This document shows positions 47,742-63,689 of a DNA stretch of 64,000 nucleotides, piece after piece (within the stretch, counting starts at the first letter, position 1; every line of letters starts with the position of its first letter). The stretch is from Peristeroidobacter agariperforans (lineage in GTDB: Bacteria; Pseudomonadota; Gammaproteobacteria; Steroidobacterales; Steroidobacteraceae): assembly GCF_004138335.1 (NCBI RefSeq), contig NZ_RYFW01000001.1, forward strand, positions 1,736,001-1,800,000. Reading direction: 5' to 3'. The position numbers and the translations under genes were made by a program. The notes under the pieces were generated by a model that worked only from the letters and a program-made list of their open reading frames with translations, was not told the DNA's origin and searched no databases.

Positions 47742-50201
47742 ATGAGCTTTCATTCGAAGACAGTGGCCGTACTTTGCGCCGCGTTCATCGGCGCGATGGC
47801 GCAAGCCGCAGGCCCTGAGAAGTTGGTCCTGACGGAGAAAGAGTATTTCGCGGCGCCCGGCCTCGACGTTCTGGTGTTCAACAATACCTACGATGGCTTG
47901 TTCAGCGATGCGAAGATCGCGGGAATCGAGCTCATTCATCACGGAGTGCGCACCGCCACGAACGGCGATGTCCGCTTGGGCCCGACGCCGGAGCAATGGG
48001 ACCCTACGCCTGCGGTGAAGAAACGCACGGTCGACAAGGCCAGCGGTGCGATCGACGTTCACCTGCACTACCCGCAACACAAGTTCGAGTACGTCGTTCA
48101 TGCCGAGCCGAGCGCTGCGGGCGTGCGAATCAGCGTGGCCCTGGACCGTCCGCTGCCGCGCGAGCTCGAGGGTAAAGCCGGCTTCAACCTCGAATTCCTG
48201 CCTTCGGCGTATTTCACACGCACTTATCTGATGGATCGGAACAGCGGCGCTCTGCCGCTCTATCCGTTCGGCCCATCGGGGCGCGATGCGAAAGGGGAGA
48301 CGACCCGCCTGCCGATGGCGACGGGACACAACCTCACGCTCGCGCCAGAAGACGCCGAACGCCGCGTGACGATTACGTCGAACAAGGCCGAGCTCGCGCT
48401 GTACGACGGTCGCAACCAGGCGCAGAACGGCTGGTTCGTGGTGCGCAGCTTATTGCCTGCAGGCAAAACCGGCACGGTGCTCGAGTGGACGCTGTCGGCC
48501 AGCACGATTCCGGGCTGGACCCGTCCGGCGGTGATCGGTCATTCGCAAGTGGGCTACGGCCCGAGCCAACAGAAGATCGCGGTGATCGAAGCCGACCCGA
48601 GAGCAGCGGCGCCGTCGACGGCCAAGCTGCTCAAGGTGAATGCGGACGGCACGATGTCGGAGGCGTTCAGTGCCCCGCCGCGACCGTGGGGCGACTACCT
48701 GCGCTATCGCTACTACACGTTCGACTTCTCGACCGTGCAGGAGCCCGGACTCTACATGATCGAAGCCGGCGGTCAGCGAACGCATGCGTTCCGCATCGCT
48801 CACGACGTGCTCGCGAGCGCGTGGCAACCGACGCTCGACGTGTACTTTCCGGTGGCGATGGATCACATGTTCGTGAACGAAGCGTATCGCGTGTGGCACG
48901 GCGCTTCGCACCTGGACGACGCGCGTCAGGCTGCGGAGAACAAGGAGCATTTCGATCTCTACGGCGGCAGCCCATCGAACGATTCGCCGTTCAAAGCCGG
49001 CGAGCACATCCCCGGGTTGAATGTCGGCGGTTGGTACGACGCAGGCGATTTCGATCTGCGCACGCAGACGCACTACAGCGTCGTGCAATCGCTCGTCGAT
49101 ACCTGGGAGAGATACAAGCCCATGCGCGACGAAACCTCGATCAATCAGGAGCGGCGTCACGTCGAGATCCATCGTCCCGACGGTGTGCCGGACCTGCTGC
49201 AGCAGATCGAACATGGCACGCTATTCCTGATCTCGCAGTACCGTGTGTTCGGTCACGCGATTCCCGGCATCGTCGAGCCGGACCTGGGGCAGTACACGCA
49301 TCTGGGTGACGCCGTAACGAAGACGGACAACAAAATCGACGATCCCACCGACCCGAACTCGGCGAAAGACGATCGCCTCGCATTCACGACTGCGACGACC
49401 GCGCTCAACTACGGATCCGCTGCGGCGTTGGCTGCTGCGAGTCGCGCGCTGCGCGGGTATCGCGACGCATTGGCCGATGAGTGCCTCTCATGGGCGCAGA
49501 AGGCATGGGATTTCGAGGGCGGACGCAAGCCCAATCTGTTTGCGTTCGGAAATACGACTGGCGGCAATCCCGAAGATGAGGAGCTGCGCGCCGCGGTCGA
49601 ATTGTTGCTCGCGACGAAGGATGCAAAGTACGCCGCGCGCGTGAACGCGTTGTGGCCGGCGATCGATCAACGCTTCATGGCGAACGCTGCCGATGCGGTG
49701 CGAGTCATGCCGCTCATGGGCAAGGACTTCGCCGCTAAGCTGCGCGCCCGTGCCGCGAAGTATCGCGATCAATCAACGGCGGAGCTCAAAGAGAATCCCT
49801 ATGGTGTGCCGGTCACGCGCGCGGGCTGGGCTGGCAACGGCACCGTCGTGGCGTATTCCACGGCAGCGTTCTTTTTGCACACGGCGTTTCCCGATCTGTT
49901 CGATCGCGAAGCCGTGTTCCGCGGCTTGAATTTTTTGTACGGCACGCACCCGAGCTCCGACATCTCCTTCGTTTCGGGCGTAGGCACGCATTCGAAGAAG
50001 GTCGCATACGGCAACAATCGCGCGGACTTTTCTTTCATTGCCGGCGGCATCGTGCCGGGCGTGTTGATCCTGAAGCCCGATTTTCCGGAGAACAAGGAAG
50101 ACTGGCCGTACTTGTGGGGCGAGAACGAATACGTCATCAACGTGGGCGCGAGCTATATTTTCCTGGTGCACGCCGCGCAGGAACTGTTGAATCGCGAGTG
50201 A
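47742..50201 (+). CDS. GH9-family glycanase with N-terminal Ig-like domain
   Basis: The 819-residue secreted enzyme has a signal peptide (VAVLCAAFIGAMAQA) and, after about residue 270, a CelD_N Ig-like domain (IPGWTRPAVIGHSQVGYGPSQQKIAVIE) preceding a GH9 catalytic (alpha/alpha)6 domain. The base motif GWYDAGD is at about 430-436 and the acid Glu is in WGENEYVIN near 790, close to the usual NEV ending. GH9 members cleave beta-1,4-glucans, or glucosamine and related glucosides in some branches; the substrate here is not certain. The first 270 residues are an additional beta-rich region of unknown role. Good terminators on both sides isolate it as a single-gene unit. Confidence 0.85.
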   Translation: MSFHSKTVAVLCAAFIGAMAQAAGPEKLVLTEKEYFAAPGLDVLVFNNTYDGLFSDAKIAGIELIHHGVRTATNGDVRLGPTPEQWDPTPAVKKRTVDKASGAIDVHLHYPQHKFEYVVHAEPSAAGVRISVALDRPLPRELEGKAGFNLEFLPSAYFTRTYLMDRNSGALPLYPFGPSGRDAKGETTRLPMATGHNLTLAPEDAERRVTITSNKAELALYDGRNQAQNGWFVVRSLLPAGKTGTVLEWTLSASTIPGWTRPAVIGHSQVGYGPSQQKIAVIEADPRAAAPSTAKLLKVNADGTMSEAFSAPPRPWGDYLRYRYYTFDFSTVQEPGLYMIEAGGQRTHAFRIAHDVLASAWQPTLDVYFPVAMDHMFVNEAYRVWHGASHLDDARQAAENKEHFDLYGGSPSNDSPFKAGEHIPGLNVGGWYDAGDFDLRTQTHYSVVQSLVDTWERYKPMRDETSINQERRHVEIHRPDGVPDLLQQIEHGTLFLISQYRVFGHAIPGIVEPDLGQYTHLGDAVTKTDNKIDDPTDPNSAKDDRLAFTTATTALNYGSAAALAAASRALRGYRDALADECLSWAQKAWDFEGGRKPNLFAFGNTTGGNPEDEELRAAVELLLATKDAKYAARVNALWPAIDQRFMANAADAVRVMPLMGKDFAAKLRARAAKYRDQSTAELKENPYGVPVTRAGWAGNGTVVAYSTAAFFLHTAFPDLFDREAVFRGLNFLYGTHPSSDISFVSGVGTHSKKVAYGNNRADFSFIAGGIVPGVLILKPDFPENKEDWPYLWGENEYVINVGASYIFLVHAAQELLNRE

Positions 50202-51647: not shown

Positions 51648-52538
51648 TCACTCGATCCGGCGCTTGATCAGTTCCTCGCCGGAGGACTGCAGCCTGGCCG
51701 CCGTCCGGCTCTTGTGCTTCAAAGCCAGGAAAACGAATAACGCATCGATCAACGCCAGCTGCGTCACGCGCGAGGCGAGCGGCGCCTGGAAATATTTGAT
51801 CTCGCTCGGTGTCGCGTACAGACAGTAATCGCTATGAGTCGTGATCGGCGACTTCATCGCGTTGGTGAGCCCGATGGTGGTGGCGCCCTTGGCCTTGGCG
51901 ACTTTCAGGCATTCCACGGTTTCGCGAGTCGTGCCCGACAACGAAATGCCGATGGCCACATCGCCTTTCTCCAGCTGGGTCGCGGCGATGAGCTGAATGT
52001 GCGAGTCGAAATGCGCCGTGGCCTGCAGCCCCAGCAGCAGGAACTTGCAGTACGCCGTGTGCGCCACTGGATATGACAGGCCGATGGAGAACAGCTCCAC
52101 GCGGCGGCTCTTGTCGATCACCTGCGCGATCTTTTCGAACTGAGCGGGCGGGTTGATCTGCAGGGTTTCCGTCAGGCTCTGCGCGTGAACCTGAAACACC
52201 TTCTCGAGCAGCGTGCCGCTTTCCTGCGCCTGTCCGGCGGGCAGGCCCGACTGCGCCAGGTCGCGGGCCAAGGCGATTTTGAACTCGGCAAAACCCGCGA
52301 CACCGACGCGCCGGCAGAACGCCACGATGGCGCCGACACTGGCGCCGCAGTCGTCCTTCAACTGAGCGATCGATGAGGTGATGACCCGTTCCGGGTCGGC
52401 GAGCACACAGTCCGCGATCAACCGGTCTGTCGGATTGAGGGAAGCGAGGATGCCTTTGATATAGGTCAGCAACGGCCGCCGGCCGTCGGCCCCAAGCGTG
52501 TCAGTCGATGCCTTTATTGCAGAGTTCTTGCGTCGCAC
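51648..52538 (-). CDS. RpiR-family regulator with SIS domain
   Basis: The 296-residue regulator has an N-terminal HTH_6 domain (LLTYIKGILASLNPTDRLIADCVLADPERVITSSIAQLKDDCGASVGAIVAFCRRVGVAGFAEFK, about 23-88) and a C-terminal SIS sugar-isomerase domain that senses phosphosugars (VELFSIGLSYPVAHTAYCKFLLLG and VAIGISLSGTTRETVECLKVAKAKGATTIGLTNAMKSPI). It is divergent from the ten-gene sugar operon starting at 52691. The 152-bp gap holds an operator-like repeat, so it probably represses or activates that operon in response to a phosphorylated intermediate and controls its own gene. Confidence 0.9.
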   Translation of the reverse strand: MRRKNSAIKASTDTLGADGRRPLLTYIKGILASLNPTDRLIADCVLADPERVITSSIAQLKDDCGASVGAIVAFCRRVGVAGFAEFKIALARDLAQSGLPAGQAQESGTLLEKVFQVHAQSLTETLQINPPAQFEKIAQVIDKSRRVELFSIGLSYPVAHTAYCKFLLLGLQATAHFDSHIQLIAATQLEKGDVAIGISLSGTTRETVECLKVAKAKGATTIGLTNAMKSPITTHSDYCLYATPSEIKYFQAPLASRVTQLALIDALFVFLALKHKSRTAARLQSSGEELIKRRIE

Positions 52539-52596
52539 AGGACCATTCTATGAGCAGCCTTGACAGCACACCAGCGGCCGCGTAGTTTTGAATCAA

Positions 52597-52636
52597 GTTC
52601 AGTAACACTACAAAATTAGTGAACATAGTTCAGTCA
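52597..52636. promoter_or_regulatory. Probable RpiR operator between regulator and sugar operon
   Basis: GTTCAGTAA (52597-52605) and TTAGTGAAC (52616-52624) form an inverted repeat with one mismatch in nine, ten bases apart. A third half-site, GTTCAGTCA, follows at 52628-52636 in direct orientation. The local sequence is AT-rich compared with its surroundings. This fits a dimer- or tetramer-binding site in the divergent promoter region. Confidence 0.7.
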
Positions 52637-52690: not shown

Positions 52691-53551
52691 ATGTCGCTCG
52701 AACCGATCAATCGACTGATGCAGCACGCCCGCCATCACGACTATGCGCTCGGCTATTTCGAGAGCTGGAGCCTCGAGTCCGTGCAAGGCGTGATCGATGC
52801 GGCCGAAGCCACCCGCTCGCCCATCATCATCGGCTTCAACGGTGAATGGCTCGCGGACCGACAGAACGCCTCGGCCCAGGAGCTGCGCCTGTACGCGGCG
52901 CTCGGCAGGGCGGCGGCAACAGAAGCCGACGTGCCCGTCGGGTTCATCTTCAATGAATGCCCGAACGATGCTTGGGTGGAGCAGGCGATCGGCGCGGGCT
53001 TCAACCTGGTCATGCCGGCCGATCCGCACGCTCCGCTGGAGGATTACACCCGGCGTGTGAAGCGGCTCACTGCATTGGCCCATAGCCGTCAGGTCGCCGT
53101 GGAAGCGGATTTCGAAGCTGACGATCTGGACACCGCTCAGTACGCCGACGGCGCTGTGAAGTTTGTGACGGAAACGGGCGTCGACCTGCTCGCGGTCAGC
53201 GTCGGCAACGAAGAAATCAAATTGCAGGGCCGCGCGCCATTGGATTTGAGCCGTCTCGAAGCACTGGGCCGGCGGCTCGATGTGCCCCTGGTATTACACG
53301 GGGGGACCGGCATCGAGGATGACTCGATCAAGGCCGCCATTCATCTGGGTGTCAGGAAGATCAACTATGGCACCTATATGAAACAAAAGTATCTTCGAAC
53401 GATCCGCGAGGCGCTGGACACCGCCGAGCCGAATCCGCACGCACTGCTCGGCGATGGCAGCGGCACCGACCTGATGGTCATCGGCCGTCGCGTCGTGAAG
53501 GAAGCCGTCCTGGAACGGATCGATCTGCTCGGTTGTTGCGGAAGGGCGTGA
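52691..53551 (+). CDS. Class II aldolase-like protein with altered metal site
   Basis: The 286-residue protein follows the fold pattern of KbaY/GatY/FbaA class II aldolases, which cleave ketose phosphates to DHAP and an aldehyde. Kept features are Glu138 in VEADF, His203 in LHGGTG (the phosphate loop and zinc ligand) and the late NYGTYMK. The usual HxDH metal motif is replaced by FNECPND at 87-93, and the TAVGTxHG histidine is replaced in SVGNEEIK at 170-177. So at least two canonical zinc ligands are missing, and catalysis may differ or be metal-free. It is the first gene of the operon, 67 bp after the operator. Confidence 0.8.
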   Translation: MSLEPINRLMQHARHHDYALGYFESWSLESVQGVIDAAEATRSPIIIGFNGEWLADRQNASAQELRLYAALGRAAATEADVPVGFIFNECPNDAWVEQAIGAGFNLVMPADPHAPLEDYTRRVKRLTALAHSRQVAVEADFEADDLDTAQYADGAVKFVTETGVDLLAVSVGNEEIKLQGRAPLDLSRLEALGRRLDVPLVLHGGTGIEDDSIKAAIHLGVRKINYGTYMKQKYLRTIREALDTAEPNPHALLGDGSGTDLMVIGRRVVKEAVLERIDLLGCCGRA

Positions 53552-53554
53552 GCC

Positions 53555-54511
53555 ATGCCTGATGTGGGTTGCGCAGGAATCCTGGTCGAAGACACATTCT
53601 GTGGTCCTCTTCCGGCCCTGCCACCGGCGGGACAATTGCACGCGCTGGACGACATGCCGGTACGAGCCGGCGGTTGTGCGGCGAACGTCGCTATCGATCT
53701 TGCCAAGCAAGGCGTCAGCGTCGATCTCGTCGGTTGTGTAGGCCGCGACGGATCCGCCGAAACGCTCTTCAAAGCATTTGCCAGGCACGACGTCGGTTGT
53801 TCGCTGGTGGAGCGCGTCGAGCAGTATCCGACCAGTCGGACGATCGTGCTGTTGATCGAGAACCAGGACCGCCGTTACCTGCACACCTTCGGCGCCAACC
53901 ACGCGTTCCGCATCGATCGCATCTCGCCCCAATGGCTGGAGTCGTTGAAAGTGTTCTATCTCGGCGGCTTGTTTGCCATGCCGGGCATCGACTTTTCGAA
54001 GCTCAAAGCGCTGCTGCAGTTCTGCAAGGAAGTCGAGGTCAAGACCGTCGTGGATGTAGTCGTTCCGCAAGGAATGACGGGCATGGCGCAGTTGGCCCCC
54101 TTGCTGCCATACATCGATGTATTTCTGCCGAACGACGATGAAGCGCGCGCCTTCACTGGTTGCGCCGATCCGTGCGACCAACTGCGCGCGCTGAAAGATG
54201 CCGGTGCAAACACCGTGATCATCACTCGTGGCTCACAGGGGGCCGTCGCGGGGCGGAACGGGAAGATGTGGAGTTGCGGGGCCTACCGCATGGCCGTGGT
54301 CGATCCGTCCGGCTCCGGGGATGCATTCACGTCGGGCGTCATCCGCAGCCTGCTGGCAGGCTGGGATCTGCAGCAAACCCTTCGCTATGCGAGCGCCGTC
54401 GGCGCGTCGGCTACCAGAGCAGCGGGCACCACCGATTCCGTCTTCAGCGCCGAAGAAGCCGACGCGTTTCTAGTCGAGCATCCGTTGCCTGTTAACACCG
54501 AGGAACACTGA
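53555..54511 (+). CDS. PfkB-family carbohydrate kinase
   Basis: The 318-residue ribokinase-type kinase should phosphorylate the sugar or a ketose intermediate using ATP. Motif 1 is GGCAANVAIDLAKQGVSVDLVGCVGRDG near residue 38, and motif 2 with the catalytic Asp and anion hole is DPSGSGDAFTSGV near 250. It starts just four bases after the aldolase-like gene and ends three bases before the lipoyl gene, so it is tightly co-translated. The phosphorylated position and substrate cannot be told from sequence. A sugar-phosphate product would fit the SIS-domain regulator. Confidence 0.92.
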   Translation: MPDVGCAGILVEDTFCGPLPALPPAGQLHALDDMPVRAGGCAANVAIDLAKQGVSVDLVGCVGRDGSAETLFKAFARHDVGCSLVERVEQYPTSRTIVLLIENQDRRYLHTFGANHAFRIDRISPQWLESLKVFYLGGLFAMPGIDFSKLKALLQFCKEVEVKTVVDVVVPQGMTGMAQLAPLLPYIDVFLPNDDEARAFTGCADPCDQLRALKDAGANTVIITRGSQGAVAGRNGKMWSCGAYRMAVVDPSGSGDAFTSGVIRSLLAGWDLQQTLRYASAVGASATRAAGTTDSVFSAEEADAFLVEHPLPVNTEEH

Positions 54512-54513
54512 CG

Positions 54514-54756
54514 ATGGATGTGAACATGAAGATGCCGGACCTCGCCACCAACGAGGGCGTGGAGCTGGGCGTCACCCGCTGGCTCGCTAACGTGGGCGAC
54601 CCTGTGAAGCGCGGTCAGGCGCTGCTGGAAATCGAAACCGACAAAGCGGTCCAGGAAGTCGAGTGCATCGCCAACGGCACCCTGACTACCATCCATGTGC
54701 AGTCCGGGCAGAAAGTTGCCGTCGGCACCGTCATCGCAACGATCAAGGTGAGCTGA
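54514..54756 (+). CDS. Stand-alone lipoyl-domain protein
   Basis: The 80-residue protein is a lipoyl (biotinyl) attachment domain: the hairpin ETDKAVQEVE holds the modified Lys44, preceded by GDPVKRGQALLEI and followed by GTLTTIHVQSGQKVAVGTVIATI. It carries a swinging lipoyl arm that would be acylated by the E1 protein next to it. No E2 acyltransferase domain is attached, which is unusual. Its stop overlaps the E1 start by one base (ATGA). Confidence 0.92.
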   Translation: MDVNMKMPDLATNEGVELGVTRWLANVGDPVKRGQALLEIETDKAVQEVECIANGTLTTIHVQSGQKVAVGTVIATIKVS

Positions 54757-56771
54757 TGACTGGCTACGATCGCAAGTTCCTGCTCGGCATGTACGAGCGC
54801 ATGGTGCTGATCCGCGAGTTCGAGGACGCGGTCAAATTCCTGTTCCTCGAAGGCACCATGCCCGGAACGATTCATCAATGTCAGGGCCAGGAGGCCACCG
54901 CTGTCGGCGTGTGCACGGCGTTGTCGTCCGACGATTGGATCACTTCGACGTTTCGTGGCCACGGCCACGCGCTGGCAAAGGGATTGGGGCCGCAAGAGCT
55001 GATGGACGAGCTGTTTGGCGCCGAAACCGGTTGTTGCAAGGGCCGGGGCGGATCGATGCACGTCGGCAATATGAGCAAGGGGATGGTGCCGGGAATCGCC
55101 ATCGTGGCAGGTGGCATTCCACTGGCCGCCGGCATGGCGCTGTCATTCAAGTTGGAAAACAAGCCACACGTAGTGGCGTCCTTCTTCGGTGACGGCGCCA
55201 TTGCCGAAGGGGCGTTTCATGAAGGCGTCAACATGGCCGCCATCTGGAACCTGCCGCTCATCCTGGTGTGCGAGAACAATCTGTACGGCGCGTCGACGCA
55301 TGTCGATCTGGTAATGAAGAATTCGCGCATCTCGGATCGCGCGAAGTCGTATGGATTCCGCGGTGAGACGGTGGACGGCAACGATGTGCTCGCAGTGTAT
55401 GAAGCTGCGCAGAAAGCGGTCGCCGAATGTCGCGCCGGCCACGGTCCGGTGCTGCTGGAGCTGCTGACCTATCGTCGCACCGGGCATTCGCGTCGCGACC
55501 CGTGTCATTACCAACCGAAGGACGAGCGCGAGGCCTGGACGCAACGCGATCCCATCGAGCGATTCGCCGCGAGGATCCAGATCACGGCCGAAGAACACGA
55601 GCTCATCAACACTCGCGTTCAAAAGACGCTGGCCGCAGCAGTCGAGCGAGCGAAGGTCGCCCCGCATCCGAGCGCCAGCGATCTGGCCGAGTACGTTTAT
55701 GCCGAGGCGTCGCCGCGGCCATCTGCTCTCAATGAACAATTAAACCCCGTCGTGAGTGCAGGTGGATCAACGCGACGTCTCGGCATTGCCGAAGCGCTGC
55801 GCGAGGGAATCACCGAAGAAATGGCTGCGGACCCGCGCGTGTTCTGCATCGGCGAGGATATTGGGGTGCCGGGAGGGTGGGGCGGTGCGTTCACGGTGAC
55901 GCTGGGCCTGGAGAAGAGATTTCCGGAGCGGATGATCAATACACCGATCGCGGAGCTCGGTTTCTTCGGCCTGGCCACCGGGGCGGCAATGATGGGCATG
56001 CGGCCGATTGCCGACGTGCAGTATGGCGACTTCCTGTTCCTGGCCAGCGACCAGATCATCAACAACGCGGCCAAGCTTCGTTACATGTCCGGCGGAACGA
56101 TCAGCGTACCGCTGGTCATGCGTGCACCGGTGGGGGCGACGGGCCGGGGCTCGCAGCATGCGCAAAACATGGAACGCTATTTCACCGGCGTTCCTGGATT
56201 GAAAGTGGTTGCCCCCTCGAACGCCTACGACGCGAAAGGATTGCTCAAGGCCGCACTACGTGACGGCAATCCCGTGCTCATGTTCGAGCACAAGTTGCTG
56301 TACGGCTCGAAGGGCGCGCGCGCCGAGGGCGGTGCCGTCGATGCGTCGAGCGATGTTCCGTTGGACGACTATGTGGTGCCGATCGGCAAAGCCGCGATTC
56401 GGCGCGAAGGTAAGCGCGTGACGGTGTTGGCCTGGCTCTTGATGGTCCACTACGCGATGCAAGTGGCCGATGAGCTCGACGCCGAAGTGATCGACGTGCG
56501 CAGTCTGTCTCCTATCGATTGGGAAACGATCGGCGCCTCGGTGCGCAAGACCGGTCACGCCGTCATCGTCGAAGAAGGACCGGTGACCGGCGGTGTGGGC
56601 GCCGAAATCGCCGCCGGCATCGCCGAGCGTTGGCCATCGGTGCGCGTAACGCGCGTGGCCTCGCCTGATGTCCCTGTTCCTTTCACTCCCGTGCTCGAAA
56701 ACGCATATCGCCCCAACGCGGATCGCATCTCGATGGGAGTGCGCCAGATACTGGAGGAGAGCCATGGCTGA
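54756..56771 (+). CDS. TPP-dependent E1 alpha-beta fusion of 2-oxoacid/acetoin dehydrogenase type
   Basis: The 671-residue protein fuses an E1 alpha part (about 1-325) and an E1 beta part (about 345-671), each resembling the acetoin or pyruvate dehydrogenase E1 subunits. The TPP motif begins GDGAIAEG at 145-152 and ends at NN 174-175. The alpha block [24 protein letters not shown] is of the AcoA style. The beta part has [33 protein letters not shown] and the final [15 protein letters not shown]. It should cleave a 2-oxo compound or diketone and pass the acyl group to the lipoyl protein. E2 and E3 genes are missing from the operon. Confidence 0.9.
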
Positions 56772-57657
56772 TACCGAAGCACTCAGAGAAGCGAAGAATT
56801 TCTACGAGGACGTGCCGGTGCGCGCGCCCGGGTTCTTTCTGCGGGGAGCCGGCTCGCTCGACTGGGGCATGAAGAATCGCCTGGCGCGCATCTTCAATCC
56901 TGAAACCGCCCGCACCGTGATGCTCGCCATCGACCATGGCTATTTCCAAGGACCGACGACGGGCCTGGAGCGCGTGGATCTCAACATCGTCCCGCTCATG
57001 CCCATGGCCGATGCGTTGATGCTCACGCGCGGCATCTTGCGGACCACGGTGCCGCCGGCGATCGACAAGCCCATCGTCATGCGTTGTAGCGGCGGTCCGA
57101 GCATTCTCAAGGAGCTGTCGAACGAGGAGCTGGCGGTCGACATAGAAGACGCCATTCGCATGAATGTTTCGGCGCTGACCACGCAGGTGTTCATCGGCGG
57201 TCAGTTCGAGACGCACTCGGTGCACAACATGACGCGGCTCGTCGACATGGGCCTGCGCTATAGCATTCCGACGATGGCGGTCACTGCGGTGGGCAAGGAA
57301 CTGACGCGCGATGCTCAGTATCTTCGCCTGGCCTGCCGCATCTGTGCCGAGCTGGGGGCACAGATCGTCAAGACGTATTACTGCGCCGAAGGTTTCGAAA
57401 CGGTCACGGCTTCGTGTCCGGTGCCCATCGTGATGGCGGGCGGCAAGAAGCTGCCGGAATTGGACGCGCTCACCATGGCGTACAACGCGATTCAGCGGGG
57501 TGCGGCCGGCGTCGACATGGGGCGCAATATTTTCCAGAGCGACGCGCCACGCGCCATGATGCAGGCGATTCACAAAGTCGTGCACAACGGTCTCAAGCCG
57601 AAGGAAGCGCATGAGCTGTTCCTGACCTTGAGAAGCGAAGAGTCGAAAGGACATTGA
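56764..57657 (+). CDS. lsrF: LsrF-type thiolase/class I aldolase
   Basis: The 297-residue protein matches E. coli LsrF, which transfers an acetyl group from 3-hydroxy-5-phosphonooxypentane-2,4-dione to CoA, giving DHAP and acetyl-CoA. The Schiff-base Lys is Lys203 in [16 protein letters not shown], the position reported for LsrF. Other class I blocks are [18 protein letters not shown] and the closing [34 protein letters not shown]. The start at ATG 56764 overlaps the E1 stop by eight bases. Without the lsrACDB/lsrK genes it is more likely to serve another phosphorylated diketone than AI-2. Confidence in the family is high, in the substrate low. Confidence 0.9.
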
Positions 57658-57658
57658 A

Positions 57659-58360
57659 ATGGCGCGCTCCCCTCTCGTTGATCGTTTGCGCGCCTCTGCG
57701 CCTCAGATCAGCGTCGGGGTGCTCACTGCGGACTGGCTGACGCTGGGCTCGCAGCTGGAGATTCTGGAAAGCGCGGGGGTCGAGCTGCTGCACTTCGATG
57801 TGATGGATGGGGTGTTCTGCCCCATGCTGACCCTGGGTGCGCCCGTCGTCGCGGGGCTCAAGACACGTCTGCTCAAAGACGTGCACCTGATGATCGAAGA
57901 TCCGCTCAGCAAGCTGGATGCGTTCGTTGCCGCCGGCGCGGACATCATCACCGTGCACGCGGAGTCCACTCGTCATCTTCATCGCGTGCTGCAGACCTTG
58001 GGCACGATGACCAACGCCAACGATTCCAATCGCGGCATCGTGCGTGGCATCGCTTTGAATCCGGGCACGCCGCTGGAAGTGCTGGAGCCGCTGGCGGGCG
58101 AGTTCGAGCTGGTCCTGATGCTGGCGGTGAATCCGGGCTGGGGCGGTCAGAAGTTCATCGCGTCGACGTGCGAACGTGTCAAACGGTTGCGCGAGATGGT
58201 GCGAGATACGGCGTTGATCTGCGTGGACGGCGGCGTCACGCGAGACAATATTGGCAACATCGCTCGCCTTGGCGCCGACATCATCGTGACCGGTAGCGCC
58301 GTCTTCGATGGCAAGGCCCCGTTGGAGAACGCCAGAGCAATGATGGGCGCGTTGCGATGA
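57659..58360 (+). CDS. rpe: Ribulose-phosphate 3-epimerase family protein
   Basis: The 233-residue TIM barrel has the Rpe blocks HFDVMDGVFCP, VHLMIEDP, GIALNPGTPLE, MLAVNPGWGGQKF and ICVDGGVTRDNIGNIARLGADIIVTGSA, with the metal Asp and His residues of the family. It interconverts D-ribulose-5-phosphate and D-xylulose-5-phosphate, or a C3 epimer of another ketose phosphate. Some loops differ from housekeeping Rpe (GVLTADW at the start, CP in place of VP), so a pathway-specific epimerase is likely. The gene starts one base after the lsrF stop. Confidence 0.88.
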   Translation: MARSPLVDRLRASAPQISVGVLTADWLTLGSQLEILESAGVELLHFDVMDGVFCPMLTLGAPVVAGLKTRLLKDVHLMIEDPLSKLDAFVAAGADIITVHAESTRHLHRVLQTLGTMTNANDSNRGIVRGIALNPGTPLEVLEPLAGEFELVLMLAVNPGWGGQKFIASTCERVKRLREMVRDTALICVDGGVTRDNIGNIARLGADIIVTGSAVFDGKAPLENARAMMGALR

Positions 58361-60321
58361 ACAGCATGTGGAACGATCGGGACGCGGTCCGATTCCAGGG
58401 GCCGTTGGGACAACGGGTCTACACGTCGCGCCTGCTCGGTCGCGATCCTTCGCTCGTTCTCCATGGCGGCGGCAATACGTCGGTCAAGCTGTTCGAGCCG
58501 AATCTTTTCGGCGAATCCGAGGAAGTGCTCTACGTCAAAGGGCGCGGCGCGGATCTGAGCACGATCGACGCGGCGGGGTTCTCGCCCTGTCGGTTGAGGC
58601 GACTGCTACGACTGGTTAGTCTCCCCGAACTGACCGACGAGCAGATGGAGAGCGAGCTGAAGCTGTCCTTGACCCGTGCCTCCGCTCCCGCACCGTCAGT
58701 TGAGACGCTGCTTCACGCGCTGCTTCCTCAAAAGTTCGTCGATCACACGCACGCCGATGCGCTCATCGCCGTGATGAACTCACGCAACGGCTTCGAGCGC
58801 TTGCAGGAGATCTACGGCACGCAGGTCGTGATCATTCCGTACGCGATGCCGGGCTTCAAACTGGTTCGTTTGTGCCGCGAGATTCTTTCCAAAGAGGCAT
58901 CACGCGAAACCATTGGTGTCGTGCTGATGCATCACGGGCTCTTTACCTTCGGCGAGTCGGCGAAACTTTCTTACGAGCGAACGATCGATCTGGTGTCGCT
59001 GGCGGAGCGCTATCTCGAGACGCATGGCGCTGGCCGCATCGAGTGGCTTACGCAGCCTGTGAAGCCCCAGTCCCGCGCAGAGCTTGCGACGCTTCGGCGG
59101 CAGGTGAGTGACGTGGCCGGGACGCCCATGGTGATGACCGTACGTTCGGACTCACAGGCGCTGGGGTTTGCCCGGCGTCCCGACGTGTTTGAGTTGTCTC
59201 AGCGTGGCGGCGTGACGCCCGATCACGTCATTCGTACGAAGCGCGTACCGATGGTGGGGCGCGATGTTGCAGCCTATGCGGCGGCATATCGAGATTATGC
59301 GCGAGCCTACGCAGCTGGGCGCACATTGGCGGCCGTTGATCCAGCGCCGCGCGTGATTCTCGATCCTGAGCTGGGCATGGCGGTGCTGGGCCGAAGCGCC
59401 GAGGATGTGGGCATCGCTGAGGATATCTACCGGCACACCATCGACATCATCATGAGCGCCGAGATACTCGGCGGCTGGAAGGCGCTGCCCGCCAGAGATT
59501 TCTTCGATGTCGAGTTCTGGGACCTGGAGCGCACCAAGCTTGCCAAGCCCGCTCCTGAATCCGTCTTCCTGGGAGAAGTTGCGCTCGTGACGGGCGCGGC
59601 TTCGGGCATCGGTAAAGCCTGCGTCGACGCCTTGCTCGCACGCGGCGCCGCCGTCGTCGGTCTGGATGTAGCGTCGGGTGTCAAACAACTGTACGACCGC
59701 AAGAGTTATCTGGGTATCGAGTGCAATCTCACCGATGAGGAGCAGATCGGCGCGGCGCTGGACCAGGCGGTGCGCAGCTTCGGTTCGATCGATATGTTGG
59801 TCCTGAATGCCGGAATCTTTCCAAGGAGCTCGCCGATTGCCGCGCTGGCCACCGACGTGTGGCGCAGAACCATGAGTATTAATCTGGATGCAAACCTGGT
59901 GCTGATGCGGGAATGTCATCCACTGCTGAAGCTCGCGCCGCGCGGTGGCCGCGTGGTGATTATCGGATCCAAGAATGTCGCCGCCCCGGGGCCGGGAGCC
60001 GCGGCTTATTCGGCCTCGAAGTCAGCGATGCAACAGCTGGCGCGAGTTGCGGCGCTGGAGTGGGGCAGCGATGGTATTCGCGTGAACTGCGTGCACCCGA
60101 ATGCCGTGTTCGATACGGCGATCTGGACACCCGAAGTGCTGGCGGCGCGTGCGGCCTCCTACAAACTGAGTGTCCAGGAATACAAAACAAACAACGTCCT
60201 CAAGGTCGAGGTGACGAGCAAAGACGTGGCTGAGCTGGCCGCCGAGCTGTGCGGGCCCAGGTTCTCCAGGACCACGGGCGCGCAGATTCCAGTGGATGGC
60301 GGCAACGAGCGGGTCATCTGA
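58357..60321 (+). CDS. Bifunctional class II aldolase / short-chain dehydrogenase, RhaD-like
   Basis: The 654-residue protein joins an AraD/FucA-type aldolase (about 1-330) to an SDR (about 405-654), the plan of bifunctional rhamnulose-1-phosphate aldolase/alcohol dehydrogenase. The aldolase has LHGGGNTSVKL, the zinc HTHAD near 129-133 and a later His in MHHGLFTFG. The SDR has TGAASGIGKACVDALLARGAAVV, NAG, and the YSASKSAM catalytic pair. Known enzymes release DHAP and a lactaldehyde-like product that the SDR oxidises. It overlaps the rpe stop by four bases (ATGA) and probably cleaves a deoxyketose-1-phosphate, which is an inference. Confidence 0.87.
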   Translation: MNSMWNDRDAVRFQGPLGQRVYTSRLLGRDPSLVLHGGGNTSVKLFEPNLFGESEEVLYVKGRGADLSTIDAAGFSPCRLRRLLRLVSLPELTDEQMESELKLSLTRASAPAPSVETLLHALLPQKFVDHTHADALIAVMNSRNGFERLQEIYGTQVVIIPYAMPGFKLVRLCREILSKEASRETIGVVLMHHGLFTFGESAKLSYERTIDLVSLAERYLETHGAGRIEWLTQPVKPQSRAELATLRRQVSDVAGTPMVMTVRSDSQALGFARRPDVFELSQRGGVTPDHVIRTKRVPMVGRDVAAYAAAYRDYARAYAAGRTLAAVDPAPRVILDPELGMAVLGRSAEDVGIAEDIYRHTIDIIMSAEILGGWKALPARDFFDVEFWDLERTKLAKPAPESVFLGEVALVTGAASGIGKACVDALLARGAAVVGLDVASGVKQLYDRKSYLGIECNLTDEEQIGAALDQAVRSFGSIDMLVLNAGIFPRSSPIAALATDVWRRTMSINLDANLVLMRECHPLLKLAPRGGRVVIIGSKNVAAPGPGAAAYSASKSAMQQLARVAALEWGSDGIRVNCVHPNAVFDTAIWTPEVLAARAASYKLSVQEYKTNNVLKVEVTSKDVAELAAELCGPRFSRTTGAQIPVDGGNERVI

Positions 60322-60330
60322 GGGGGAAGC

Positions 60331-61002
60331 ATGAAACGGTCCGAAATCAATGCGCTGATCGATGACGCGATCGCGCTGCTCCACGAGCACCAGGTCCGCC
60401 TGCCGCCGTTCGCATACTGGAGTCCTGCGGAGTGGGCGACCAAGGGCGAAGAATGCGATGAGATTCGCCAGTGCAAGCTCGGTTGGGATATCACCGATTT
60501 CGGCTCAGGAGATTTCGACAAGGTCGGCCTGGTGGTCTTCACGGTGCGCAACGGCCATCACAAGCTCGCGCCGTACAACAAAAAGCCCTATGCCGAGAAG
60601 ATCCTGGTGATTCAAGAGAATCAGCACACGCCGATGCATCATCACATGCTCAAGTCCGAGGACATCATCTGCAAGTCGGGCGGCAATCTGCTGATTCGCC
60701 TGTTCAATCGCGGCCCGGACGGCAAGCTCGCGGACTCGGATGTCGAGGTCTCGTTGGACGGCGTGCGCCACCGTGTCGCAGCCGGGCATACCTTTCGTCT
60801 GCAGCCGGGCGACTCCATCACCTTGACGCCCTATCTGTACCACGAGTTCTGGGCCGAAGAAGGCCGGGGCACTGCCATCGTGGGCGAAGTCTCTTCGGTC
60901 AATGACGATGAGACCGACAATGCCTTCTATGCCCAGGTCGGGCGCTTTCCGACCATCGACGAAGACGAGCCGGTGACGCACAAGCTGTGTACTGAATACT
61001 AA
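60331..61002 (+). CDS. D-lyxose/D-mannose isomerase family cupin
   Basis: The 223-residue protein belongs to the D-lyxose isomerase family (COG3822), which interconverts aldoses such as D-lyxose or D-mannose with their ketoses using a divalent metal. The metal site is MHHHMLKSEDII near 101-112 with a further His in YLYHEFW. The family signature WGLAEWATKG-like text appears as YWSPAEWATKGEECDEI. The ribosome binding site GAGGGGGAAGC precedes it, nine bases after the previous stop. It is the likely entry step from the imported aldose to a ketose. The exact aldose is unknown. Confidence 0.9.
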   Translation: MKRSEINALIDDAIALLHEHQVRLPPFAYWSPAEWATKGEECDEIRQCKLGWDITDFGSGDFDKVGLVVFTVRNGHHKLAPYNKKPYAEKILVIQENQHTPMHHHMLKSEDIICKSGGNLLIRLFNRGPDGKLADSDVEVSLDGVRHRVAAGHTFRLQPGDSITLTPYLYHEFWAEEGRGTAIVGEVSSVNDDETDNAFYAQVGRFPTIDEDEPVTHKLCTEY

Positions 61003-61015
61003 CGTTCGGTGCCGC

Positions 61016-62194
61016 ATGACCTTCGAGTCCACCGTCAAGATTCAGGGACAGGACTCATTCCTGCTGGGGACGCGGGAGGTCGAGCTGGCGTTGACCCGGA
61101 CCGGCGGCATGCTGGGTCCGGTGACGTTCTTTCCCGAAGACGATGCGCCGATTCAGCCCTATGCCATCGCGCCGTGGGCGGAGGAATCGCTGCCTGCAGA
61201 TGTGCCGCCGATGCTCCGAGCATTGCGTGGCGACTGGTTCTGCTCGGCATTTGGAGAGAATGGCGAGCCGTATCGTGGCCAGCGATTGCCGCCGCACGGT
61301 GAAACTGCGAATCGTGATTGGCGCGAGATTGATAGTGGAGGAACAAGCGACGGCTGCTGGCTGCGCCTGGGTGTCGAGATGCCGTTGCAGGGCGGCGCAT
61401 GTCACGCGACCACGGCTCTGCTCTCCAATCAATCGATCGTTTATCAGCGTCATGACCTTTCGGGACTGACCGGTCCGATCAACCCGGGCCATCACGCGAC
61501 ACTGGCGTTTCCAATCGGCCAGGGCGCGGCACGACTTTCGTTTAGTTCGTTGCTTCATGCGCGCACCTATGTCGAGCCAACTGCCAGGCCCGAAGATCGC
61601 GGCTACTCGTGGCTCAAGACGAATGAGCAGATCGTCGATCTGCACGCTGCGCCGTGCATCGATGGCTCGACCACGGACTTGTGCCGCTTTCCCGCCCGAC
61701 GCGGATTCGAAGATCTGGCGCTGTTGTGCGCCGATCCGGCGCAGGAGTTCGCTTGGTCGGCCGTGACCTTCCCGGAGCAACGATTTGTTTGGTTCGCATT
61801 GCGCGATCCGAAGCAACTCGCCTCGACGCTGCTGTGGTTCTCCAATGGTGGGCGTCACTTCCCGCCTTGGAATGGCAGGCACGTCAACGTCATGGGGATC
61901 GAGGACATCACGGCCTACTTTCACGCCGGGCTCGCCGCGTCGTGCCGTGAGAATCCGTTGAACGCGCGAGGCATACCGACTTCTCTACGGCCCGATGCTC
62001 GTGGCCGGCTGTCCATTTTCTATGTCCAGGGCGTCGCACGCATACCGGCGGATTTCGATTGCGTCGCCGACATCGAAGGTCACTGGAGAGATAACAGCAT
62101 CGTGCTGCGCGCGGCATCGGGCGCAGCGGTGGCAGTCCATTGTCATCTCGACTTCCTGCGCACGGGAACCTTACCGGGGCTCGCATTACAATGA
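61016..62194 (+). CDS. Mutarotase-like sugar-binding protein of unknown function
   Basis: I do not recognise a named family for this 392-residue cytoplasmic protein. Its pattern (VYQRHDLSGLTGPINPGHHATLAFP, FSSLLHARTYVEP, WNGRHVNVMGIEDITAYFHAGLAAS) suggests the galactose-mutarotase-like superfamily: a beta-sandwich that anomerises or binds aldoses. It may convert the alpha and beta forms of the imported sugar for the lyxose-isomerase-like enzyme just upstream. It starts 13 bp after that gene and overlaps the next by four bases, so it clearly belongs to the operon. Confidence 0.6.
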   Translation: MTFESTVKIQGQDSFLLGTREVELALTRTGGMLGPVTFFPEDDAPIQPYAIAPWAEESLPADVPPMLRALRGDWFCSAFGENGEPYRGQRLPPHGETANRDWREIDSGGTSDGCWLRLGVEMPLQGGACHATTALLSNQSIVYQRHDLSGLTGPINPGHHATLAFPIGQGAARLSFSSLLHARTYVEPTARPEDRGYSWLKTNEQIVDLHAAPCIDGSTTDLCRFPARRGFEDLALLCADPAQEFAWSAVTFPEQRFVWFALRDPKQLASTLLWFSNGGRHFPPWNGRHVNVMGIEDITAYFHAGLAASCRENPLNARGIPTSLRPDARGRLSIFYVQGVARIPADFDCVADIEGHWRDNSIVLRAASGAAVAVHCHLDFLRTGTLPGLALQ

Positions 62195-63573
62195 AACAAA
62201 CGCTCAACGGCACTTTGGTCCGGACGGTCTTCGTGGCTGCGCTGGGCGGCTCGTTGCTTGGGTTCGACACGGCAGTTATCGCCGGGTCGACGCAGGGGCT
62301 GACGCAGGTGTTCAATCTCTCGCCGGCCGAGCTGGGGTTCACAGTGTCGGCGGCGCTGTGGGGCACGGTGCTGGGTGCGATGGCGGCAGGCTGGCTTGGC
62401 CGCGTGCTCGGCGGGCGCACGAGTCTGCTCATTCTCGCCGCGTGCTACCTCATATCGGCGTTGGGCTGTGCGCTTTCCCCATCTTGGATGTGGCTGTTGA
62501 TCTTCCGCTTCGTCGGCGGCCTCGGCATGGGCGGTTCATCCGTGATTGCGCCGGTATATATCGCCGAGATTGCTCCCGCCGCGTGGCGGGGGCGATTGGT
62601 CGGCGCATTTCAGATAAACATCATTGGCGGCATTCTGCTCGCGTATCTATCGAACTACGTGATCGGATTGTTTCCGTTGGGCGATGTCGAGTGGCGCTGG
62701 CAGCTGGGCGTCGCAGCCGCGCCGGCGGCACTGTTTCTATCGATGCTGATCGGTATTCCGCAGAGCCCACGATGGTTGATCGCACAGAATCGCCTGACGG
62801 AAGCAGATCAGGTGCTTGCGATGCTCGGCTCGCTGCAGCCGCAAGTGGAGCGGGAAACTATCCGCGCGTCGCTGCAGGCGGATGTGGGGCCGAGCTCAGA
62901 TCGGCTGTTTCAGTGGCGCTATCGCCGCCCGATCCTGCTGGCGCTGGTGCTGGCCTCGTTCAATCAGTTGATCGGCATCAACGCGGTGCTCTACTACTTG
63001 AACGATATCTTCCAGATGGCTGGCTTCGATCGCGCGTCGCAGAACGCACAGGCCGTGGCCGTCGGTGCGACGATGCTGATCGCCACTCTCATCGCACTGA
63101 GCCTGATCGATCGGTTCGGCCGACGCACGCTGTTGTTGGTGGGCTCCGTCGGACTGGCGGTGTGCCTGGCCGCCATCGCGACGATCTTCCGGATCCAGCA
63201 GTATCAGCAGATGCTGCTGGTGTTCGTGGTCGGCTACGTGGCGTTCTTCGCGTTTTCGCAGGGCGCGGTCGTCTGGGTGTACCTCAGTGAAATTTTCCCC
63301 GATCGCGTGCGCGCGCAAGGGCAGAGCCTCGGCAGCTCGACGCATTGGGTGATGAACGCCCTCGTGTCGGCCGCCTTTCCGGTGGTCGCAACTCAGTCGC
63401 AGTCCGGGCCCTTCTTCGGGTTCCTGGTCATGGTGATCCTGCAGTTTCTGGTCGTGTGGATGTTCTTTCCCGAGACCAGCGGCATCAGACTCGAAGACAT
63501 TCAACGGCGCTTGGGAACCTCGGATCCTACTGACGGCGCAGTCGTCGTGCAGGGCGCCCGCGAAGCTCCCTAG
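62191..63573 (+). CDS. MFS sugar porter
   Basis: The 460-residue transporter has 12 hydrophobic segments and the sugar-porter signatures: GSLLGFDTAVIAGS at the first helix, RFVGGLGMGGSSVIAPVYIAEIAPAAWRGRLV after helix 4, PQSPRWLIAQNR after helix 6, QLIGINAVLYYL in helix 7 and VWVYLSEIFPDRVRAQG in helix 10. These match proton-coupled D-xylose/L-arabinose/galactose or inositol symporters. It overlaps the previous gene by four bases and closes the ten-gene operon, so it probably imports the substrate sugar. Confidence 0.93.
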   Translation: MKQTLNGTLVRTVFVAALGGSLLGFDTAVIAGSTQGLTQVFNLSPAELGFTVSAALWGTVLGAMAAGWLGRVLGGRTSLLILAACYLISALGCALSPSWMWLLIFRFVGGLGMGGSSVIAPVYIAEIAPAAWRGRLVGAFQINIIGGILLAYLSNYVIGLFPLGDVEWRWQLGVAAAPAALFLSMLIGIPQSPRWLIAQNRLTEADQVLAMLGSLQPQVERETIRASLQADVGPSSDRLFQWRYRRPILLALVLASFNQLIGINAVLYYLNDIFQMAGFDRASQNAQAVAVGATMLIATLIALSLIDRFGRRTLLLVGSVGLAVCLAAIATIFRIQQYQQMLLVFVVGYVAFFAFSQGAVVWVYLSEIFPDRVRAQGQSLGSSTHWVMNALVSAAFPVVATQSQSGPFFGFLVMVILQFLVVWMFFPETSGIRLEDIQRRLGTSDPTDGAVVVQGAREAP

Positions 63574-63689
63574 CATCGCAGTCGGCTTTCTTACACACTG
63601 CGTGCGCACTTTCCCCTGCCCCGGGGAACTTCGATTTGGCTGACCCATTCCCACTACATCGCAGCGAAATCTGCGACCGGAGATCAGCC

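Follow-up and report, generated by a model that had tools for sequence, protein, structure and literature searches.

Organization of the operon

The window analyzed here is a stretch of 64,000 nucleotides from Peristeroidobacter agariperforans (assembly GCF_004138335.1, contig NZ_RYFW01000001.1, positions 1,736,001 to 1,800,000). It contains an operon of ten co-directed genes (52691-63573, plus strand), and the gene for a MurR/RpiR-family regulator with an SIS domain (51648..52538, minus strand; assigned by its SIS family match) is divergent from it. Neighboring genes overlap at four junctions (lipoyl/E1 by 1 base, E1/LsrF by 8, Rpe/fusion by 4, and P0010/MFS by 4 when the first ATG of the MFS gene is taken as its start), and the remaining junctions are gaps of 1-13 bases. 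An original prediction, made from the letters of the window, had described a tightly packed operon with overlaps and a divergent RpiR/SIS regulator, and our analysis confirms both. All 11 genes are under purifying selection (dN/dS 0.031-0.209, pairwise against three relatives).

Families were assigned with Pfam and NCBIfam. The first gene encodes a class II aldolase-like protein of an Asn-Glu subfamily (FBA-like; 52691..53551; F_bP_aldolase, PF01116, 160 bits), which we propose to be a ketose-phosphate enolase or isomerase. It is followed by a PfkB sugar kinase (53555..54511; PF00294, 161 bits), proposed to be a ketose-1-kinase, by a stand-alone lipoyl domain of 80 amino acids (54514..54756; Biotin_lipoyl, PF00364, 68 bits), and by a fused E1 alpha-beta dehydrogenase of the thiamine diphosphate (ThDP) type with a GHSRRDP loop (54756..56771; PF00676, PF02779 and PF02780). 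Downstream are an LsrF homologue (56764..57657; NF006081, 495 bits against a cut-off of 297) and a ribulose-phosphate 3-epimerase-like (Rpe-like) protein (57659..58360; Ribul_P_3_epim, PF00834, 181 bits). A RhaEW-like fusion of a class II aldolase and a short-chain dehydrogenase (SDR) (58357..60321; Aldolase_II+SDR; NF006196, 1000 bits against 831) precedes a cupin of the D-lyxose/D-mannose isomerase family (60331..61002; Lyx_isomer, PF07385, 318 bits against a cut-off of 20.8). The last two genes encode P0010, a protein of 392 amino acids without a Pfam or NCBIfam match (61016..62194), and a sugar porter of the major facilitator superfamily (MFS) (62191..63573; Sugar_tr, PF00083, 336 bits; TIGR00879, 325 bits against a cut-off of 237.8). 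All ten genes are on the plus strand. This is a real, conserved operon in which a plain part (isomerase, kinase and aldolase/SDR) is joined to an odd part (FBA-like protein, E1-lipoyl unit and LsrF).

Conservation and spread

The original prediction proposed a search for the same gene set in other genomes. The genes are not co-located only here: the set recurs in other Steroidobacteraceae and in distant phyla. Synteny from the RpiR gene to the MFS gene is complete in three of the four Steroidobacteraceae loci (L059, L060 and L061), and the contig of the fourth (L062) ends inside LsrF. Named strains are the source of three of the four, so tests should be feasible. The genome is Steroidobacter-like, the operon E1 sharing 97% identity with the S. 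agaridevorans protein. In a search of 196 genomes from the order, the second-best E1, behind that of the window itself, was 45% identical, and the GHSRRD loop is absent from the 29 other E1 loci returned.

A search of a named genome collection gave 100 relatives of E1, and the best 80 of the 100 loci were examined. Because the search peptides were taken from the window E1, this set leans toward near kin. The motif GHSRRD[PA] is present in 72 of the 80 loci and GHSRRDT in L068; the loop was not seen in L094, whose alpha part lies beyond the contig, or in six loci with other E1 types. We kept 74 loci and used those six as controls. Within 8 kb, the 70 kept loci outside the Steroidobacteraceae have a lipoyl protein (64 loci), FBA-like protein (46), PfkB (30), lyxose-isomerase family protein (27), aldolase/SDR (21), MFS (7), LsrF (6), Rpe (5), RpiR (1) and P0010-like protein (0), and these counts are lower bounds because many contigs are short. 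With 5 kb available on both sides (39 loci), the counts are FBA-like 23, isomerase 17, PfkB 14, aldolase/SDR 14 and LsrF 3. All six control loci have a lipoyl protein and none has any other operon family. LsrF and Rpe are thus optional, and the core consists of isomerase, kinase, FBA-like protein, E1-lipoyl unit and aldolase/SDR. The Opitutaceae locus L090 has nine of the ten genes, with the MFS gene on the other strand and P0010 missing. P0010 was found solely in L059, L060 and L061 among the 80 loci (77-95% identical); its structure model reached a pLDDT of just 29, and by eye the protein itself may be of the mutarotase type, with beta structure.

The E1 clade with the loop is represented in Planctomycetota, Verrucomicrobiota and Chloroflexota, among others. 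We built a tree of 110 E1 rows (109 different) by a quick method, in which several outside rows have long branches; a branch with SH-aLRT support of 99 separates 70 loop rows from 40 others. The Steroidobacter E1 is nested among Verrucomicrobiota sequences, next to L068 and L107 (support 95), and this placement suggests a transfer out of Verrucomicrobiota.

A plasmid of Arthrobacter sp. FW306-07-I that was typed conjugative (L183, L187 and L188; 1-20000 and 90000-101757) carries a dispersed version of the E1-lipoyl/FBA-like unit. Like the window operon, it has an Asn-Glu FBA-like protein, a fused E1 and the same lipoyl protein standing alone, here together with FGGY sugar kinases and a sugar ATP-binding cassette (ABC) transporter. 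The other end of the plasmid encodes a 228-residue E2-family protein, E3, ThiC and a glycerol-3-phosphate dehydrogenase family protein. The cluster differs from the window operon in its FGGY kinases, in its E1 loop (GHSRGD) and in the presence of E3 and a separate E2 catalytic domain elsewhere on the plasmid; no lyxose isomerase is annotated in the stretches shown. Further dehydrogenase complexes linked to sugar genes are E1-E2-E3 sets that stand beside sugar uptake or regulator genes in L184, L185 and L186 and, by eye, in L077-L079; their neighbors are a glucitol phosphotransferase system (Priestia), a sugar ABC transporter (Sinorhizobium), and a glycoside hydrolase of family 43 (GH43) with an MFS protein (Clostridioides).

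An aldolase fold without aldolase catalytic residues

In class II aldolases, an Asp is catalytic and a pair of His residues binds the zinc. In the FBA-like protein, the catalytic Asp-His is replaced by Asn88-Glu89 in 40 of 40 aligned rows, and one metal His and its GG loop are kept in all 40. An FBA-like match was found in 53 of the 74 loci: 51 have Asn-Glu (50 by pattern, L120 by eye), none has Asp-His, and the matches in L089 and L133 are end fragments without the Asn-Glu stretch. With the Arthrobacter protein included, the 37 rows of the subfamily form a clade (support 0.96) that excludes six named aldolases, five of which have Asp-His in the printed motif; the sixth, GatY, escaped the pattern. 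The structure model is a class II aldolase TIM barrel (pLDDT 91.7), and the 50 nearest Protein Data Bank folds listed are class II aldolases, one of which (9a4l) is described only as a complex. The protein therefore has the fold of a class II fructose-bisphosphate aldolase but not the Asp and zinc-binding His pair, and dN/dS in the Steroidobacteraceae is 0.03-0.09. As judged from these residues, it is probably not an ordinary aldolase. The original prediction counted two aldolase types in the operon; one intact aldolase domain is present, in the fusion, and the other aldolase-like protein lacks the catalytic residues.

RuBisCO-like proteins suggest a role for the FBA-like protein. Four loci with the loop E1 (L076, L131, L136 and L203) encode a RuBisCO-like protein and have no FBA-like protein in the stretch examined, and L076, L131 and L136 are all among the 21 loci without an FBA-like match (P = 0.02). 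The E1s of the four group with that of L075 (support 99), and L075, which has the FBA-like protein, and L136, which has the RuBisCO-like protein, are E1 sisters (support 98). Because a RuBisCO-like protein is found where the FBA-like protein is missing, it is suggestive that the FBA-like protein does enolization chemistry. The two RuBisCO-like proteins that we scanned fall below every NCBIfam cut-off. At an E value of 1e-120, RuBisCO-like proteins are rare: among 387 genomes from the phylum of G593 (the Opitutaceae genome with L090), G593 itself is the one match, and the phylum of another genome, G594, has 1 in 392; few further displaced operons could therefore be gathered. In L131, L203 and L220 a RhaB-like kinase, in all three below the rhamnulokinase cut-off, adjoins the RuBisCO-like gene. 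L220, in the phylum of G594, has RpiR, RuBisCO-like and RhaB-like kinase genes in a row and an SDR gene some 3 kb on.

A known RuBisCO-like protein provides a chemical precedent. According to PMC10663253, a RuBisCO-like 5-methylthioribulose-1-phosphate isomerase is part of a route from methylthioadenosine (MTA) to 1-deoxyxylulose 5-phosphate (DXP). Isomerization of a ketose-1-phosphate to an acyloin phosphate in this MTA-isoprenoid shunt is our model for the FBA-like step. The window operon, in contrast to the shunt, has no RuBisCO-like protein.

The E1-lipoyl unit

The E1 proteins of L059-L062 and the window all have the GHSRRDP loop. E1 scores best against pyruvate dehydrogenase (PDH) E1 models, still below their cut-offs (TIGR03182, 335.5 against 393.85; NF008854, 306 against 454). 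Pyruvate and acetoin dehydrogenase complexes likewise combine E1 alpha-beta with a lipoyl domain, and many relatives of the operon have an E2. The operon differs from these complexes in the clade and loop of its E1, in the linkage to sugar genes, and in the absence of E3 and of an E2 catalytic domain. Other operons of the E1-loop type do have an E2 with a catalytic domain. An E2-like motif is present in 36 of the 74 related loci; this search covered plus strands alone, contig ends truncate some loci, and a few matches (e.g., L137) may have arisen by chance. The original prediction listed three acyl-transfer components. Lipoyl protein, E1 and LsrF are indeed present, although the set lacks an E2 catalytic domain and LsrF is optional. 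We considered LsrF as the missing acyltransferase of lipoyl-only operons and found this unsupported, since the LsrF loci L069, L075 and L090 also carry the E2 motif. A PDH-type E1 can reach DXP chemistry; a mutant PDH E1 reportedly lets DXP-synthase-deficient E. coli survive, according to a title in the reference list of PMC10663253.

Isomerase, kinase and the likely sugar

The isomerase is well above the Pfam family cut-off and below that of the equivalog NF051472 (274 against 350). It matches the solved D-lyxose isomerase 3kmh with an E value of 1.4e-64, and its His-x-His and Glu are present in 10 of 10 aligned rows. The isomerases of the loci fall into two size classes, one of about 223 residues and one of about 185-200; members of the shorter class score weakly (23-32 bits against a model built here), and one of them passed the Pfam cut-off. 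The kinase GxGD motif is present in 28 of 28 aligned rows. A lyxose-isomerase locus on a Citrobacter freundii plasmid (L182) resembles the operon in that a lyxose isomerase, a class II aldolase-family protein and PfkB adjoin one another. It differs in having an Asp-His aldolase and an ABC transporter, and no E1, lipoyl, LsrF or SDR is annotated in the stretch shown.

D-lyxose and D-mannose give the isomerase family its name. Homologues of glycoside hydrolase family 38 (GH38) are found in 28 of the 80 loci (only 24-25% identical in L093 and L108) and in none of the six loci with other E1 types, which are the sole control; three representatives were confirmed by Pfam. GH29 is present in L075 and L116, and GH92 in L127. 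These neighbors agree with an alpha-mannose-like sugar. By eye, no such glycosidase adjoins the operon in the window; upstream, at 47742-50201, is an 819-residue protein that by eye is GH9-type glucanase-like. Nothing shows the substrate to be a deoxysugar, which the original prediction had considered.

LsrF, the Rpe-like protein and the aldolase/SDR fusion

The Lys of the VKTYY motif in LsrF forms a Schiff base. The LsrF homologue scores 380 bits to solved LsrF structures, and this Lys is present in 10 of 10 aligned rows. As in the processing of autoinducer-2 (AI-2), the operon has an LsrF above the family cut-off, and dione thiolysis is our model for a second branch of the pathway. Unlike that system, the operon has no LsrK, LsrG or Lsr transporter among its Pfam and NCBIfam families (the operon alone was examined), and LsrF is optional. 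At 1e-60, LsrF matches were found in 15 of 145 genomes in the phylum of G593, at 16 places. Besides L090, 4 of the 15 places have E1 or aldolase/SDR in the stretch and 11 do not; the LsrFs of those 4 are the more similar ones (62-80%), and one (L205) is linked by a weak 49-bit match.

The Rpe-like protein is below the cut-off of TIGR01163 (194.7 against 212.6) and above that of the wider NF004076 (170.6 against 165). The fusion is below the RhaEW equivalog TIGR02632 (428 against 567.75); NF006196, which it matches, names no substrate. The window fusion keeps the aldolase Glu, His-x-His and His and the SDR Ser-Tyr-Lys, as do nearly all of 16 aligned rows. The RhaEW L-rhamnose pathway of Chloroflexus and Bacillus, as described in PMC3870299, also consists of an isomerase, a kinase and an aldolase/SDR fusion. 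The operon has no RhaA, its kinase is a PfkB, its fusion belongs to another subfamily (NF006196), and it adds the E1-lipoyl unit, FBA-like protein, LsrF and Rpe. With the RhaEW enzyme of PMC3870299, dihydroxyacetone phosphate (DHAP) was not detected without NAD+, which the authors explain by a dependence of the aldolase on the dehydrogenase domain. By analogy, this would agree with an order in which oxidation precedes cleavage.

The window's genome is one of 24, among 398 from the phylum, that exceed the NF006196 cut-off. As an anchor for finding the operon, aldolase/SDR is not specific: regions in G064, G161, G157 and G025 (11.8-19 kb read) have no other operon genes. The window's genome has a second aldolase/SDR fusion (G000 C9:1340005-1342053; L055), 33% identical and below the NF006196 cut-off. 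Of 20 regions from the window's phylum, 6 (L042, L043, L047, L049, L050 and L056) pair LsrF with an aldolase/SDR and have no E1 in the stretch; in these, LsrF (64-68% identical) directly adjoins a fusion of another subfamily. That such an SDR-LsrF pair serves 5-deoxyribose salvage is an idea only. The neighbor in L056 is a 1274-residue protein with nine helicase-associated (HA) domain matches.

Proposed pathway

From gene content, order and residues, we infer a set of reactions. We postulate that the operon has spread horizontally and supports growth on a single aldose configured like D-mannose at C2-C4, i.e., D-lyxose, D-mannose or D-rhamnose. The MFS porter would import the sugar, and RpiR would act through two palindromes in the intergenic stretch. 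The lyxose-isomerase-type cupin would convert the aldose to a ketose, and PfkB would phosphorylate it to the ketose-1-phosphate. The FBA-like protein would then enolize the sugar and move the carbonyl without splitting the chain, as RuBisCO-like isomerases do. The resulting acyloin would be cleaved by the ThDP E1, in which the Arg-Arg loop may bind the phosphate. The acyl fragment would pass to the lipoyl protein and on to CoA, with release of glyceraldehyde-3-phosphate, in a DXP-synthase-like reaction run in reverse and coupled to oxidation. In Steroidobacter, the CoA transfer and the E3 step would have to come from another complex. In operons that have Rpe and LsrF, the SDR half could oxidize the ketose-1-phosphate to a dione, the Rpe-like protein could shift it, and LsrF could thiolyze it to DHAP and acyl-CoA, as in AI-2 breakdown.

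We are fairly confident that this is a dedicated catabolic operon that yields acyl-CoA and triose phosphate. The scheme of the original prediction, taken broadly as cleavage of a phosphorylated ketose or diketone to triose phosphate and acyl-lipoyl or acyl-CoA, is still judged the most sensible one, with the difference that ordinary aldolase activity is improbable for the FBA-like protein. The pathway as a whole, the explanation we prefer, is a tentative proposal that may be right, and the two steps assigned to the FBA-like protein and E1 are, as written, rather doubtful. Its central idea is that a former class II aldolase is a ketose-phosphate isomerase interchangeable with a RuBisCO-like protein, and that a PDH-type E1 with an Arg-Arg loop cleaves an acyloin phosphate oxidatively to acyl-CoA and glyceraldehyde-3-phosphate, without free aldehyde, with LsrF as a parallel dione branch in some operons; we hold this idea with considerable doubt. 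If true, it would add a way to break sugar carbon bonds. It would also assign roles to a subfamily of aldolase-like proteins, to a subfamily of E1 and to homologues of LsrF, which are otherwise named aldolase, pyruvate dehydrogenase and AI-2 thiolase, and these roles would apply in planctomycetes, verrucomicrobia, Anaerolineae and others. Even with other chemistry, the operon warns against taking the labels "fructose-bisphosphate aldolase" and "pyruvate dehydrogenase" at face value in these genomes.

Several observations weigh against the proposed pathway. The operon has only the 80-residue lipoyl domain and no E2 catalytic domain, and none of the seven E2 catalytic domains elsewhere in the genome is known to serve it. 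In the window and in L059-L062, the equivalent of H180, a ligand kept in the other aligned rows, is Glu (GNEE), and with this ligand lost the Steroidobacteraceae FBA-like protein may use a chemistry unlike that of the other copies, or may have lost it. The fusion retains an intact aldolase half, and ordinary aldol cleavage by the fusion would therefore make the FBA-like protein and E1 secondary. Displacement by RuBisCO-like proteins rests on the four loci and P value given above: of the 21 loci without an FBA-like match, 18 also have no RuBisCO-like protein in the stretch (ten of the 18 exceed 20 kb), and L220 has RuBisCO-like protein and RhaB with no E1 within 20 kb. Some FBA-like genes may lie just outside the stretches examined; in L092, the gene is about 7 kb before E1. 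A hold of the Arg-Arg loop on phosphate is a guess from sequence, and the loop count was aided by the search itself, as one search peptide sits just behind the loop. The LsrF branch duplicates the E1 step, and LsrF and Rpe are rare in these operons. GH38 neighbors may reflect glycan-degrading lifestyles. The literature searched held no substrate, product or growth datum and no tested step for these proteins. It also held no described pathway with this exact gene set, in line with the original prediction, although few subscription journals were covered and a published account may exist.

Alternative explanations

Plain fructose-bisphosphate aldolase together with PDH is rejected by the Asn-Glu residues and the separate E1 clade. 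A RhaEW-like route would give the odd proteins lesser roles: isomerase, kinase and the aldolase half of the fusion would yield DHAP and lactaldehyde or glycolaldehyde, the SDR would oxidize the aldehyde, the E1-lipoyl unit would be a dedicated PDH, and the FBA-like protein would be minor or regulatory. The intact residues of the fusion and the ranking of PDH models in the E1 scores, though these are below the cut-offs, fit such a route. So do the statements in PMC3870299 that Chloroflexus RhaEW converts rhamnulose-1-phosphate to DHAP and L-lactate in vitro and that Bacillus RhaEW, weakly active, is required for growth on rhamnose. However, E1 belongs to a distinct clade marked by a loop of its own, no lactate dehydrogenase is among the operon's families, and the FBA-like protein, not the fusion, is the most regular partner after the lipoyl protein (46 versus 21 of 70 loci). 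We consider this route unlikely.

The FBA-like protein could instead have remained a class II aldolase whose metal site is altered, with Glu and His as ligands, acting after isomerase and kinase and before conversion of the aldehyde to acyl-CoA by the E1-lipoyl unit. It has the fold, the folds nearest to it are class II aldolases, and the conserved metal His and GG loop would fit a metal site. Citrobacter L182 has isomerase, Asp-His aldolase and kinase adjoining, and ThDP enzymes can add aldehydes. Yet every copy that could be read has other residues in place of the catalytic Asp and one His, the second His is lost in Steroidobacteraceae, the operon already has an intact aldolase domain, and RuBisCO-like proteins occupy four loci without the FBA-like protein. 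This makes an aldolase of changed metal site distinctly unlikely. Breakdown of AI-2 or an AI-2-like diketone by a variant lsr system, with PfkB replacing LsrK and the Rpe-like or FBA-like protein replacing LsrG, is very improbable. The LsrF score and the suitability of dione chemistry for SDR and LsrF are consistent with it, whereas LsrF is found in only 6 of 70 such operons elsewhere, the lsr-specific families are missing from the operon, an aldose isomerase has no place in such a system, and 11 of the 15 LsrF places in the phylum of G593 are not by E1 or aldolase/SDR.

Candidate regulatory sites

The RpiR gene product is below the NCBIfam RpiR cut-offs (best NF008458, 151 against 378 bits). 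The whole 64 kb contains the palindrome TGAAYNNNGTTCA at just two places, which lie in the stretch separating the RpiR gene from the operon. The palindrome was picked after the alignment had been inspected; its 3 strand-matches compare with a shuffled mean of 0.19, and 3 were also reached in 1 of 100 shuffles. Pattern search places candidate operator 1, TGAATCAAGTTCA, at 52589..52601 and candidate operator 2, TGAACATAGTTCA, at 52620..52632, neither with an assigned strand. Both places are kept, with changes, in the alignment with three relatives: the first with changes in all three, the second kept in two and changed in the third. An inverted-repeat finder run on the intergenic stretch found none, the palindromes having come from the alignment and pattern search, and a sigma-70 scan gave 1 site against a shuffled mean of 2.6. 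After the last gene, a pattern scan places a terminator-like hairpin at 63610..63628 on the plus strand; the region has 15 such hairpins, where shuffled sequence has a mean of 8.5.

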